From the NCBI GenBank assembly GCA_902551855.1, contig CACDER010000009.1, forward strand, positions 1 to 36,451: 36,451 bases of DNA, in the 5' to 3' direction. This document shows positions 3,188-9,111 of this stretch, piece by piece (the first letter of the stretch is position 1; each line of letters starts with the position of its first letter). A program made the position numbers and the translations under genes. The notes below the pieces were generated by a model. That model made no database searches, was not told the origin of the DNA, and was given only the letters and a program-made list of their open reading frames with translations. The DNA comes from an uncultured Cryomorphaceae bacterium. GTDB taxonomy: Bacteria; Bacteroidota; Bacteroidia; Flavobacteriales; UBA7430.

Positions 3188-3937
3188 ATGAAATCCATAC
3201 AAAATAAATTAAAAATTTTTGGACTACAACCAATAATAGAGGCTATAAAATCAGGTAAAGAATTTGATAAAATTTTTATTAAAAAAGGATTACAAGGGCA
3301 ATTATCATCAGATCTGAAATATTTAATTAAAAAAAATAATATTCCTTGTAAATTTGTTCCCCTGGAAAAAATTAACCGACTCACCAAAAAAAATCATCAA
3401 GGAGTATTTGGATTTATTTCTCCAATTAATTTTCATAAAGTTGGTGAAATAATAATGAAAACATTTGAAGATGGTAAAATTCCAATTCTTCTTATGTTAG
3501 ATAGAATAACAGATGTAAGAAATTTTGGAGCTATCACAAGAAGTGCTGATAACTTCGGAGTAGATGCAATTATTATCAATAAATTTGGTAGTGCTCAAAT
3601 TAATTCAGATGCAATAAAGACATCAGCAGGTGCAATTTATAAAGTTCCTATTTGTCGTGAAGATAATCTTGTAAATTGTATTTCATATTTAAAAAAAAGC
3701 GGATTAGTTGCGATATCTTGTTCTGAAAAAGAAAGTAAGAGTATAACTGATGTTAACTTAAAAAATCCAATTTTGATAATTTTAGGTTCAGAAAAAAATG
3801 GAATTTCTAGTGATATTTTGAAAGCATCTGATGAGAAAATTAAAATTCCAACTTATGGTAAAATAGACTCTTTGAATGTTTCTGTAGCCTGTGGAATTTC
3901 TCTATATGAAATTTCAAGACAAAGATCACTAACTTGA
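3188..3937 (+). CDS. rlmB: 23S rRNA (guanosine-2'-O-)-methyltransferase, TrmH/SpoU family (RlmB-like)
   Basis: A SPOUT-class methyltransferase that uses S-adenosylmethionine for 2'-O-methylation, most likely of G2251 in the 23S rRNA P-loop. An N-terminal substrate-binding domain (about 1-85) is followed by the trefoil-knot catalytic domain. Its three diagnostic motifs are DRITDVRNFGAITRSA, ILGSEKNGIS and DSLNVSVACGISLYE. The 249-residue length matches the family. It is the last gene of the ung-rmuC-rlmB run. Its 3' end overlaps the convergent nitric oxide synthase gene by 9 bp (3929-3937). The rlmB name is favoured over other TrmH-type enzymes by the N-terminal domain and length but is not proven. 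Confidence 0.9.
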   Translation: MKSIQNKLKIFGLQPIIEAIKSGKEFDKIFIKKGLQGQLSSDLKYLIKKNNIPCKFVPLEKINRLTKKNHQGVFGFISPINFHKVGEIIMKTFEDGKIPILLMLDRITDVRNFGAITRSADNFGVDAIIINKFGSAQINSDAIKTSAGAIYKVPICREDNLVNCISYLKKSGLVAISCSEKESKSITDVNLKNPILIILGSEKNGISSDILKASDEKIKIPTYGKIDSLNVSVACGISLYEISRQRSLT

Positions 3938-5014
3938 ATTATCTCTGCTATCCTCATCATAGAAATAATTAGGACTTAATACTTCATTTTCATATTCATT
4001 ATGGAATACATCTAAAGTCGATGAAGATAATGGAGGAATAATCCATGACCATTCGGCATTCACTTTTCTTGCTTCATTTTTTTCTTGTGACAAAAATTTC
4101 AAAAACTGTTTTGATGCACTATGGTGATCAATAATTTTAACTCCATCTCTTTTAAAGGAATATAAGATAGCATAATTTAACTCAATTAAAGATTTATCTT
4201 TCCATAAACTACCTCTTTCAAAATCTTTTTCTCCAATTACTTTTGCAACTTCTTGTAACTTATTATATCTATTTTCATCAGATAAATTTCTTGCTCCTAT
4301 TTCAGTTAACATATACCAACCATTAAATGGAGCTGCATGAAATTCCAAACCCCCAATTTCAAGAGTCATATTGGATATTATTGGTGTTGAATACCACTGA
4401 AGATTAAGGTTTTTAAATTTTGGAAATTTTGGATGTGAAATCTTAATAATTTTAATTATGTTTTTTGGAATTTCTCTGAACTCAGGAGGATTATTTCCAA
4501 TCTTAATAACTATAGGCAAAATATCAAATTCAGTCTTTTTTGGTCTCCACCCTAACTTCAGACATAGTTCAGTAAAATTAATATTTTTTGGATCTCCGAT
4601 AATACTTCCATTTATGTTTTTATAACCTGCATATCCTATAAGTTGTGCATTATATATTTTTAAATTTAATTTTCTACTAAATATAGAAATTGTTGACTTA
4701 ATGTTCCCATTATCAGTTGCAAATTCTATATGATCAAATAATGCTGAATAAATATCATTAATTTCTGATAATTTTCTGCAATCAATTATTTTGAGAGAAT
4801 TCCAAAATAATCTTCCTATACATCTATTTGAATTTCTCCATGCTACTTTTGCACCATAACTTAATTCAAATTCATTTAATTCATAAGTGCCAGTTTTAAA
4901 TATTGATTCTTTTACATCATTCCATCTTTTTTGAAATTCACCAGATTTATCTAATTCTTTATAACAAAGACTTAAATATGATTTAGCTTTAACTAGGATA
5001 TAATTTTTTTTCAT
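3929..5014 (-). CDS. nos: Nitric oxide synthase oxygenase (bacterial NOS)
   Basis: Heme enzyme converting L-arginine to citrulline and nitric oxide. Bacterial forms lack the fused reductase and borrow electrons from other flavoproteins. The product is 361 residues, close to the roughly 360 of Bacillus NOS, and looks complete. The heme-thiolate motif is WRNSNRCIGR (59-68, proximal ligand C65). The arginine-binding glutamate is E238 in GWYMLTEIG. DHHSASKQF (296-304) and the pterin-side EWSWIIPPLS (321-330) are also present. No reductase or heme-acquisition gene is adjacent. The gene is convergent with rlmB and divergent from the DUF1573 gene, so it is probably monocistronic. Base composition resembles its neighbours, so recent transfer is not obvious. 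Confidence 0.95.
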   Translation of the reverse strand: MKKNYILVKAKSYLSLCYKELDKSGEFQKRWNDVKESIFKTGTYELNEFELSYGAKVAWRNSNRCIGRLFWNSLKIIDCRKLSEINDIYSALFDHIEFATDNGNIKSTISIFSRKLNLKIYNAQLIGYAGYKNINGSIIGDPKNINFTELCLKLGWRPKKTEFDILPIVIKIGNNPPEFREIPKNIIKIIKISHPKFPKFKNLNLQWYSTPIISNMTLEIGGLEFHAAPFNGWYMLTEIGARNLSDENRYNKLQEVAKVIGEKDFERGSLWKDKSLIELNYAILYSFKRDGVKIIDHHSASKQFLKFLSQEKNEARKVNAEWSWIIPPLSSSTLDVFHNEYENEVLSPNYFYDEDSRDNSS

Positions 5015-5080
5015 AAGAGTAATTCAAGATAAAATTATTTAAAATTAACAAATACTTAACAAAATTATTTTAAATGATTT

Positions 5081-5111
5081 TTGGCTTATTAATCAGATTA
5101 ATTTAGATTTG
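5081..5111 (+). promoter_or_regulatory. Bacteroidota-type promoter for the DUF1573 gene
   Basis: TTG at 5081-5083 (within TTTTTG) is separated by 20 bp from TAGATTTG at 5104-5111. This matches the Bacteroidota housekeeping pattern TTTG-N19-23-TAnnTTTG. It lies about 20 bp upstream of the start codon at 5131, which implies a very short leader and no Shine-Dalgarno site. It is the best-formed promoter I could read in the window. Confidence 0.6.
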
Positions 5112-5130
5112 TAAAAATAATCGTAAAATT

Positions 5131-5653: not shown

Positions 5654-6859
5654 ATGCCTAAAATATCTCATAAGGGTAATTTAATGCCTGAGTCACCTAT
5701 CAGGAAACTTGCTCCCTATGCTGAAAAAGCTAAAAATAATGGAATTGAGGTTATACATTTAAACATTGGTCAACCAGATATAAAAACCCCAAAAGTTGCA
5801 ATTCAAGCTGTAAAAAAATTTAACAATAAAATTTTATCTTACAGTCATTCCGCGGGAAATCTATCATTTAGAAAAAAATTAAGCTCATATTATCAGAAAA
5901 AAAATATCAAAGTTAATTATGATGATATATTAATCACAACAGGTGGATCAGAAGCTCTTAGTATCACTCTAAACTGCATAGCTGACAATGGTGATGAAAT
6001 TATTATTCCTGAGCCTTTTTATGCAAATTATAATGGATTTTCAATTTCATCTGGTTTAAAAATTATTCCAATTTCTTCAGATATTAAAAATGGATTTGCA
6101 TTGCCAAAAATTTCTGAATTTGAAAAAAAAATCACAAGCAATACTAAAGCTATTTTAGTCTGTAATCCAGGAAATCCAACAGGTTATCTTTATAGTCATG
6201 AAGAATTAGATGAGTTAAAAAAAATTGTTCTTAAACATGATTTATTTTTAATTTCAGATGAGGTATATAGGGAATTTACATACGATTCAAAAAAACATCA
6301 TTCAATTTTGCAACTTGATGAATTGTCAGAAAATACTATAATGATTGATTCCGTTTCAAAAAGATATAGTATGTGTGGTGCAAGAATTGGTTCAATAGTC
6401 TCTAAAAATAAAAAAATTATTTCTACTGCTCTGAAATTTTCTCAGTCTAGGCTTAGTCCTCCTAGTTTTGGGCAAATTGCTGCAGAAGCTGCCTTAGATG
6501 TTACAGATAACTATTTAACTGATGTTGTTATAGAATATGAAAATAGAAGAAATTTATTGATAAGTGAACTAAACAAAATTGATGATATAATTTGCCCAAA
6601 ACCACAAGGAGCTTTTTATTGTATTGCTGAATTACCTGTCAATGATTCAGAGGATTTTGCTAAATGGTTACTTGAAAGTTTTCAAATAAATAATAAAACA
6701 TTAATGATTGCCCCAGCTGAAGGTTTTTATTCTACAAAAGGATTTGGTAAAAATCAAATTAGAATAGCATATGTTCTTAATGAAAATGAATTAAAAGATG
6801 CTATTTTAATTCTGAAAAATGGACTTAATGAGTATAAAAAAATTACTAAAAATGAGTAA
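5654..6859 (+). CDS. Pyridoxal-phosphate-dependent aminotransferase (class I, aspartate aminotransferase-like)
   Basis: Fold-type I aminotransferase of 401 residues. The PLP Schiff-base lysine is K236 in SVSKRYSMCGARIG. The PLP-binding residues are in CNPGNPTG (N171) and SDEVYREF (D202, Y205). A substrate-carboxylate arginine lies in NQIRIAYVL near the C-terminus. The N-terminal SPIRKLAPYAEKAKNNGIEV and NIGQPDIKTP are typical of AspC-type enzymes. The likely reaction is aspartate/2-oxoglutarate transamination, but the exact amino acid cannot be set from sequence. The stop codon overlaps the nth start by 8 bp, so the two are translationally linked. An intrinsic terminator sits just upstream, so its promoter must be very close to the start codon. 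Confidence 0.9.
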   Translation: MPKISHKGNLMPESPIRKLAPYAEKAKNNGIEVIHLNIGQPDIKTPKVAIQAVKKFNNKILSYSHSAGNLSFRKKLSSYYQKKNIKVNYDDILITTGGSEALSITLNCIADNGDEIIIPEPFYANYNGFSISSGLKIIPISSDIKNGFALPKISEFEKKITSNTKAILVCNPGNPTGYLYSHEELDELKKIVLKHDLFLISDEVYREFTYDSKKHHSILQLDELSENTIMIDSVSKRYSMCGARIGSIVSKNKKIISTALKFSQSRLSPPSFGQIAAEAALDVTDNYLTDVVIEYENRRNLLISELNKIDDIICPKPQGAFYCIAELPVNDSEDFAKWLLESFQINNKTLMIAPAEGFYSTKGFGKNQIRIAYVLNENELKDAILILKNGLNEYKKITKNE

Positions 6860-7491: not shown

Positions 7492-9111
7492 TTAATAATC
7501 TTGGTCATTTGAAAGATAATATAAAGTATCAGTACTGATCAATTTAATCTGATAGCCTTTCCCCTGATTCATGTATCCTAAATTATTAAAATCATAATAT
7601 GGAAGATATACTTTTCCTAAATCATCCTTGACAATAATTAAATTATTATTCATGTCTTGAAAAATAAGCTCAACATTTTCAGGAGCTTCTCTTAAATAAG
7701 GTACTATATTCCAACCTTGATCTAAATAGATTGGATAAATCTCCGGTTGGATTTGCTCTCCATTAATTGAAATAATTACAGAGTTATTTAATTTAATAAA
7801 ATATCCCTGTGAATTACTCATAGATAAGTCAAAATTATATTGAGGTGAAAAAATATTTCCAAAATTATTTTTAATAATTATGATATTACTTTCATAATTT
7901 TGAAAAATATCTGACATTAAATTAGAATTGGGATTAATAAATGATGAGAAAATATTCCAGCCTTGATTTAAACTGATATATTGAGTATCAGATGAAAAAT
8001 ATTCACATGAATAATTATCTACTATTGCAGTTGAATCAAAATTAATAGCTGTTGAATCAATACAACCAAAATTTTCACATTTACCAATAAATAAAGAATC
8101 ATATAAACCATCATATCCAATATCTTCAGGAGCATTTCTATAATTTTCGGAAATAAAATTAAGTATACTTGGTGCATCAAAAAAGTCATTCATATAATTT
8201 TTTTGCCATGTTAAAACATGAATATTTTTTAAAACGTTGGGGTATGGACTTAGTATCCATCTAAACTCACCCCCATCATCATCATCAATTGAACAAGCTA
8301 AATTTCTTAAAGATTCAATAATTTCAATACTAACACATGGATGATATAAAAATACAACACCTCCGTGCTCAAGATTATGGAGGTATCTTTGTGGTGGAAG
8401 AAACTCATACTCTCCCCATTTTGCCCACATTGGTCTGTGAGGACCACAAGAGGGTGGAGTATTTTCATAACAAATACCGTTCGGGAAGTCTATATGATTT
8501 TGTGCAGAACATATATCATCTAATATAATTCCATTATTCAAATATTCATTCGGTGAACCATTACAAGTATAGTCTACTATATCATTATATGTATCTAAAC
8601 AATTATACTGACAAGAATAATTTTCAATAGTTGCGCTTTGATTATAATTAAGAGCAGTTGAATCTGTACATCCAGAAATATAGCCCTGGCAGTTTAATAA
8701 TATATTGTCTATATTGGAACAATTAAATGCATTGTTACCAATATGAATATTATCTATTAGTCCAACACTATTAGCTTGATAAAATTGAATTATTTCACAA
8801 CAGGAACTTAATAAATTGTTACCCTGAATATAAATAGACGATACGTTATATAAATTTGATAGCGGGGACAAACTACTAATATTAGTATTCAATATATATA
8901 ATCCACCATGTACTGTTATTAAAGAATTTAAAGGATCTAAGTTATAGACATTCTCTGAATTTATGAATAAACTACCAAAAAATATTTCACAGCCATCTAA
9001 ACTATCTAATTGAGTTTGATAGTAAATTACTGATTGAGAATTGTCTCCACACTGTGAAAAAACATTGAAATAGGTTGAAAATGTAAGTATAACAAAAAAA
9101 AAAAATATCAT
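7492..9111 (-). CDS. Secreted modular protein with DUF3105 domain and GCTDSTA repeats
   Basis: The 539-residue product begins with a hydrophobic signal peptide ending near FSQC (residues 1-20). Residues 21-130 resemble a short leucine-rich/receptor-L-like region (SLFINSENVYNLDPLNSL, GLYILNTNISSLSPLSNL). Two copies of a GC(T/I)DSTA-N-C motif occur at 148-168 and 349-370. These are common in secreted marine Flavobacteria proteins. Between them lies a DUF3105-like domain (about 215-325) with CGPHRP and HNLEHGGVVFLYH. The C-terminal third is two tandem repeats of about 60 residues (about 380-441 and 462-524), each running from QGWNI to an IKN/VKD-x-x-G block to GYFIKL or GYQIKL. I see no standard type IX sorting tail. 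Function is unknown. Confidence 0.8.
   Translation of the reverse strand: MIFFFFVILTFSTYFNVFSQCGDNSQSVIYYQTQLDSLDGCEIFFGSLFINSENVYNLDPLNSLITVHGGLYILNTNISSLSPLSNLYNVSSIYIQGNNLLSSCCEIIQFYQANSVGLIDNIHIGNNAFNCSNIDNILLNCQGYISGCTDSTALNYNQSATIENYSCQYNCLDTYNDIVDYTCNGSPNEYLNNGIILDDICSAQNHIDFPNGICYENTPPSCGPHRPMWAKWGEYEFLPPQRYLHNLEHGGVVFLYHPCVSIEIIESLRNLACSIDDDDGGEFRWILSPYPNVLKNIHVLTWQKNYMNDFFDAPSILNFISENYRNAPEDIGYDGLYDSLFIGKCENFGCIDSTAINFDSTAIVDNYSCEYFSSDTQYISLNQGWNIFSSFINPNSNLMSDIFQNYESNIIIIKNNFGNIFSPQYNFDLSMSNSQGYFIKLNNSVIISINGEQIQPEIYPIYLDQGWNIVPYLREAPENVELIFQDMNNNLIIVKDDLGKVYLPYYDFNNLGYMNQGKGYQIKLISTDTLYYLSNDQDY

Follow-up and report, generated by a model that had tools for sequence, protein, structure and literature searches.

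A stand-alone nitric oxide synthase (NOS) gene, which very probably encodes a functional single-domain enzyme of the bacterial type, was found in the genome of an uncultured Cryomorphaceae bacterium (assembly GCA_902551855.1). It lies within a stretch of 36,451 nucleotides (contig CACDER010000009.1), the whole of which was analysed here and is referred to as the window. The assignment is based on a full-length domain, intact heme, substrate and pterin-side residues, selection and synteny in the sequence as well as on a predicted fold, and from these we infer catalysis. The gene is a well-supported new occurrence of a known enzyme; the enzyme itself is ordinary and does not represent a novel type of system. 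The range of single-domain NOS now takes in an uncultured family of Flavobacteriales-like bacteria with small genomes (assemblies of 1.1–1.8 Mb); among the open-licence papers listed in literature searches, none reports a single-domain NOS in Flavobacteriales.

The gene, its product and the predicted fold

The open reading frame runs uninterrupted from ATG to stop (Table 1), and the plus strand over the same interval contains many stops. Pfam profile PF02898 is matched over positions 2–360 of 362 (E 3.9e-151; 503.5 bits with a cut-off of 22.7) and is the sole domain found in the protein, which is devoid of a reductase, calmodulin or globin domain, and an NCBIfam search assigned no family to it. 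In the PDB sequence search, the best match was Geobacillus NOS 2flq (E 1.2e-121), followed by B. subtilis NOS and then by mammalian NOS. This search gave 81 distinct matches with E < 0.001; among the best 60 of these 81, 59 were named NOS and one (4imx) "subunit A", an entry titled endothelial NOS in another listing.

Table 1. Features of the NOS locus (window positions; the coordinates of the three codon segments were computed from the frame of the open reading frame)
Feature	Position	Strand	Basis
NOS oxygenase, single domain, 361 aa	3929..5014	-	PF02898; PDB 2flq; AlphaFold2 model vs B. subtilis NOS
Codons 59-65, W59 (proximal Trp) to C65 (predicted heme ligand)	4818..4838	-	W59, C65 invariant in 28/28 rows
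Codon E238, predicted substrate-guanidinium glutamate	4299..4301	-	invariant in 28/28 rows
Codons 322-330, WSWIIPPLS pterin-side segment	4023..4049	-	W324, P327 invariant in 28/28 rows
116-base divergent intergenic stretch, NOS / DUF1573 gene	5015..5130	.	nearly identical to sister genome G001
rlmB, tail-to-tail neighbour, 9-base overlap with NOS 3' end	3188..3937	+	TIGR00186 198.9 bits (cut-off 160.15)

Besides W59, C65, E238, W324 and P327, the residues R60, Q124, P211, Y234 and N243 are identical in all aligned NOS rows, while W233, R242 and W322 are identical in 27 of the 28. E238 is located within a WYMxTEI segment and W324 on the pterin side, as expected of a single-domain NOS; beyond the heme cysteine, its tryptophan and the substrate glutamate, the roles of single residues are presumed. 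The N-terminal Cys-X4-Cys zinc site is absent, the cysteines of the protein being at positions 17, 65, 79 and 151. A preliminary description of the window had read the gene as a full-length NOS oxygenase with C65, E238 and the WSWIIPPLS segment. All of these lie at the positions given there, and profile coverage, conserved residues, phylogeny and predicted fold agree with that reading. Bacterial NOS have an isoleucine near the substrate where mammalian NOS have a valine (PMC9500659). By our reading of the alignment, I213 of the window protein would correspond to this bacterial isoleucine, which is I218 in B. subtilis NOS (number taken from the title of a PDB entry).

AlphaFold2, run as a monomer with an alignment of 30 rows, yielded a model with a mean pLDDT of 87.3 and a pTM of 0.86. 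Its confidence is lower near residues 61–70, 231–240, 261–270 and 321–340, probably owing to the missing heme, pterin and dimer partner. The predicted model was aligned to B. subtilis NOS 4d3i with a TM of 0.92 by Foldseek, and to B. subtilis NOS 4lwa with a Z of 43.5 and an rmsd of 1.9 over 355 residues by VIA-align 2. Only NOS chains were named among the matches listed in the structure searches, and the model matches the NOS fold.

Between the two genomes of the window's genus, the dN/dS ratio of NOS (Nei-Gojobori) was 0.166, with seven neighbouring genes ranging from 0.017 to 0.236; four other pairs gave 0.037–0.117, synonymous sites being nearly saturated in three of them. Judged by these ratios, the gene is under purifying selection. 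This bears on the possibility that a NOS-fold heme protein no longer makes NO and is either a decaying relict or a binder of heme, arginine or NO only. Such a protein would fit with the lack of a partner, sensor or globin linked to NOS, with the long branch formed by the window's genus in the NOS tree and with L236, which is found in this genus two residues before E238 at a position where 10 of 12 relatives carry glycine. However, other NOS rows differ at position 236 as well (L, E, A, N), all checked catalytic residues are kept, the frame is intact and selection is purifying, so that we consider a protein without NO production improbable.

Gene neighbourhood

NOS is arranged tail-to-tail with rlmB, the gene of a 23S rRNA methyltransferase, in all ten family loci, with rmuC and ung preceding and lipA beyond. 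On the side opposite rlmB, the window's genus carries a DUF1573 gene, a PLP aminotransferase gene and nth (endonuclease III). The NOS promoter presumably lies in the intergenic stretch that separates NOS from the DUF1573 gene; a promoter and terminator scan gave no excess of matches relative to shuffled sequences. In the eight loci outside the window's genus (L093–L100), a UbiD-family decarboxylase gene (612 aa; TIGR00148 249.1 bits with a cut-off of 244.85) is situated upstream on the same strand and is possibly co-transcribed with NOS. In L099 the contig ends within this gene, and in L096 the gene is present as three pieces. Beyond it follow either dnaJ, grpE and further genes or the genes of citrate synthase and enolase; of these, dnaJ, grpE and citrate synthase were named by eye from the sequence.

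It had been stated in the preliminary description that neither a reductase nor an NO-sensing gene is adjacent to NOS, which holds for rlmB and the DUF1573, PLP aminotransferase and endonuclease III genes. The intact copy beside housekeeping genes that was noted there turned out to be a syntenic gene of the whole family and not a lone copy. No obvious redox partner was seen among the NOS neighbours in the window and the family loci. A dedicated reductase nearby was rejected because neither the window nor the other family loci have one next to NOS, and the conserved upstream neighbour was rejected as a NOS partner because it is the UbiD-family decarboxylase and does not stand beside NOS in the window's genus.

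The neighbourhood also allows one to judge whether this NOS might be devoted to a special pathway and provide NO for natural-product nitration. Such enzymes exist in other bacteria, namely TxtD and RufN of actinomycete clusters (PMC9500659), which are likened here to the window protein by description only, as bacterial NOS oxygenases. In contrast to them, the window gene has no biosynthetic cluster with a nitrating P450 beside it, and since NOS is flanked by housekeeping genes in the window and the family loci, none of which shows a biosynthetic cluster next to NOS, a role of this kind is highly unlikely.

Several further observations were made at these loci. A BrxC-family (monothiol bacilliredoxin) gene lies beside lipA in eight of the ten family loci (L093:4678-4998 and corresponding positions), those of the window's genus not included. 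In L013, from a metagenome-assembled genome (MAG) labelled as Flavobacteriales, NOS is followed on the same strand by an apparent ferrochelatase gene (L013:9926-12445; named by eye), and a link to heme supply would be in keeping with a heme enzyme. Within the window, a DUF3105 protein is encoded by one frame of 539 aa (7492-9111) that in the sister genome G001 is split into pieces of 328 and 100 aa, and the frames of the aminotransferase and of endonuclease III have 41 bases in common (6819-6859), where the start of nth may lie further downstream.

Distribution and phylogeny

The window genome (assembly of 1.13 Mb in 79 contigs, 79.6% complete) belongs to a family of which 12 genomes were available, several of them incomplete (range 59–98%), and NOS was detected in 10 of the 12, that is in 2/2, 3/3, 0/1, 2/2 and 3/4 genomes of the genera g1 to g5. 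None of the other 383 genomes sampled from the order contained NOS (395 sampled, 12 of which represent the family), and in the phylum sample it was present in 11 of 395 genomes, the window genome counted; a match of genome G031 to the NOS profile (18.8 bits) lies under the cut-off and is left out of the NOS counts. The two family genomes without NOS also show no rlmB orthologue, with rlmB-like matches of only 28–35%, which suggests that the region of rlmB and NOS may have failed to assemble in them; the best rlmB matches in eight other-family genomes are 48–54%. NOS is present in all ten family genomes in which the locus is visible. The search of related genomes for the gene and its neighbours, proposed in the preliminary description, therefore places NOS at one chromosomal site across the family, and relatives labelled as Flavobacteriales support the Bacteroidota host presumed there.

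In a NOS tree of 46 rows, the family sequences form one group with those of two MAGs labelled as Flavobacteriales (L012 and L013; support 100/100), and the sister of this group (support 96/91) consists of NOS from Bacilli and haloarchaea and of two Bacteroidota NOS. L012 and L013 separate the window's genus from the other family members, so that the family alone is not one clade in this tree. The suspicion that the protein might turn out to be a non-NOS heme homologue was not borne out, as it groups with true NOS near the Bacilli type. The tree had also been proposed to distinguish vertical from transferred origin. When 20 single-domain Bacteroidota rows were constrained to one clade, leaving out the Bacteroidota rows L104, L106, L108 and L109, this shared origin was not rejected (p-AU 0.14). 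The distribution points to a gain of NOS by transfer, which the tree itself does not show.

Within the family, the NOS tree and a tree of LipA, Ung, RmuC and RlmB (eight family genomes) have four of five splits in common and disagree in the placement of G006. This comparison was made without the window's genus; when its two rows are included the comparison is unstable, with only three common splits and weak support where the long branch attaches. The third-position GC of NOS is 0.144, and that of 11 other window genes 0.108–0.189. On this sequence evidence, NOS is inherited vertically in the family at a conserved site, and an older transfer into the family's ancestor may have preceded this. 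That the gene is a recent acquisition or an assembly contaminant and not a resident of the lineage, to which its absence from the other sampled genomes of the order and its presence on 14 of 72,556 plasmid records might point, is hardly credible given the identical site in every family locus, the inconspicuous third-position GC and the splits shared with the neighbour-gene tree.

One of the plasmid records, pC052_E of Nostoc sp. C052 (L112; typed conjugative), carries NOS between two SDR oxidoreductase genes. NOS is also contained in the unannotated Staphylococcus phage records OR845001.1 and OR850403.1, where it probably represents host DNA within the record.

Pterin supply, electron transfer and possible role

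GTP cyclohydrolase I is encoded in 10 of the 12 family genomes. In all 11 folE loci drawn from these 10 genomes, out of 12 folE matches in all, a PTPS gene with a C-x5-HGH motif adjoins folE on the same strand. The pair of the window genome is located at L144:6773-7772 (contig C10), and its PTPS scores 107.3 bits with PF01242 and 81.2 with TIGR00039, below the cut-off of 125.5. We take the spacing in C-x5-HGH as a sign of a biopterin-type PTPS. According to PMC2229834, PTPS carries out the second reaction on the way to biopterin in animals, fungi and some bacteria and retains an active-site cysteine. Going by these genes, the PTPS-FolE pair could supply biopterin to NOS. An aromatic amino acid hydroxylase, another usual biopterin user, is present in 3 of the 12 family genomes, 2 of which are among the 10 that carry NOS. 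It was not found in G002 and G006, which are 96–98% complete and have both NOS and the PTPS-FolE pair, suggesting that in some members the chief user of biopterin may be NOS. No sepiapterin reductase was identified.

As to electron carriers, nine of the 12 family genomes, including that of the window, encode flavodoxin, and 11 encode PF00175 oxidoreductases, among them NqrF and a PaaE-like protein that is below its NCBIfam cut-off. In the window genome, an apparent very long frame that begins like PaaE was rejected, as it results from unread bases. Holden (2014) is said to describe the identification of partners. No H-NOX (PF07700) and no PF00042 globin was found in the 12 family genomes; PF01152 occurs in two of them, in one case with internal stops.

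We hypothesize that the protein would act as a homodimeric heme-thiolate enzyme. L-Arginine would be oxidised first to N-hydroxyarginine and then to citrulline and NO, the second electron coming from a tetrahydropterin. Shared cellular carriers, most likely an FldA-type flavodoxin and a cellular reductase, would pass electrons from NAD(P)H to the enzyme in place of a dedicated reductase. The pterin could be tetrahydrobiopterin made via the PTPS-FolE pair, or tetrahydrofolate as in Bacillus; if the enzyme is active, the natural pterin of the family NOS may be biopterin rather than folate. The most likely role, weakly suggested by analogy, would be low-level intracellular NO production for protection against oxidative stress or for the tuning of aerobic respiration, functions that have been put forward for NOS of Bacillus and Staphylococcus. 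The NOS of Staphylococcus aureus is linked in parts of PMC10580903 to oxidative stress resistance and to the modulation of aerobic respiration. An active enzyme would mean that small-genome bacteria pay for arginine-derived NO, which raises the question of what use NO has there. Only tentatively, and as a rather unlikely scenario, do we put forward that this small-genome Flavobacteriales-like family runs a fixed-site Bacillus-type NOS on PTPS-FolE biopterin and general flavodoxin, neither sensing NO by H-NOX nor removing it by a haemoglobin-type protein. If true, this would be an NO physiology not yet described in reduced-genome bacteria.

Comparison with known NOS

Most bacterial NOS consist of the oxygenase domain only (PMC9500659), so the window NOS, being without a reductase domain, shows the usual state. 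It resembles the NOS of Bacillus subtilis (4d3i, 4lwa, 1m7v) and Geobacillus (2flq) in its single oxygenase domain, in having the same fold from end to end at 46–49% identity in structure alignments, in the apparent bacterial isoleucine near the substrate and in the lack of Cys-X4-Cys. It differs from them by a host of another phylum whose genome has a PTPS-FolE pair, by other gene neighbours and by Asn215, a position at which Asp prevails in the Bacillus rows. The single-domain NOS from Cyclobacteriaceae (L079, L085) and from further Bacteroidota (L061, L101, L102, L103) are 43–49% identical to it but belong to other tree branches and have other neighbours. NOS has also been found in freshwater verrucomicrobial MAGs, according to a section of PMC5673642.

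The type II NOS of Spirosoma linguale and Synechococcus share the NOS oxygenase domain with the window protein, and Spirosoma is likewise a member of the Bacteroidota. Unlike the window protein, they combine the oxygenase with globin and reductase domains in one polypeptide (PMC6104048, PMC7400543); the combination of globin and flavin reductase that defines type II is absent from the window NOS. The Bacteroidota NOS named in these papers is that of S. linguale, whose sequence was also used in PMC4648414, as far as an excerpt of that paper indicates. An apparent fusion of an MscS channel with NOS (L107) was rejected, as its frame runs across unread bases. A Spirosoma-like multidomain NOS with the order globin-NOS-flavodoxin-FAD was observed in L104, from genome G614 of the same class.
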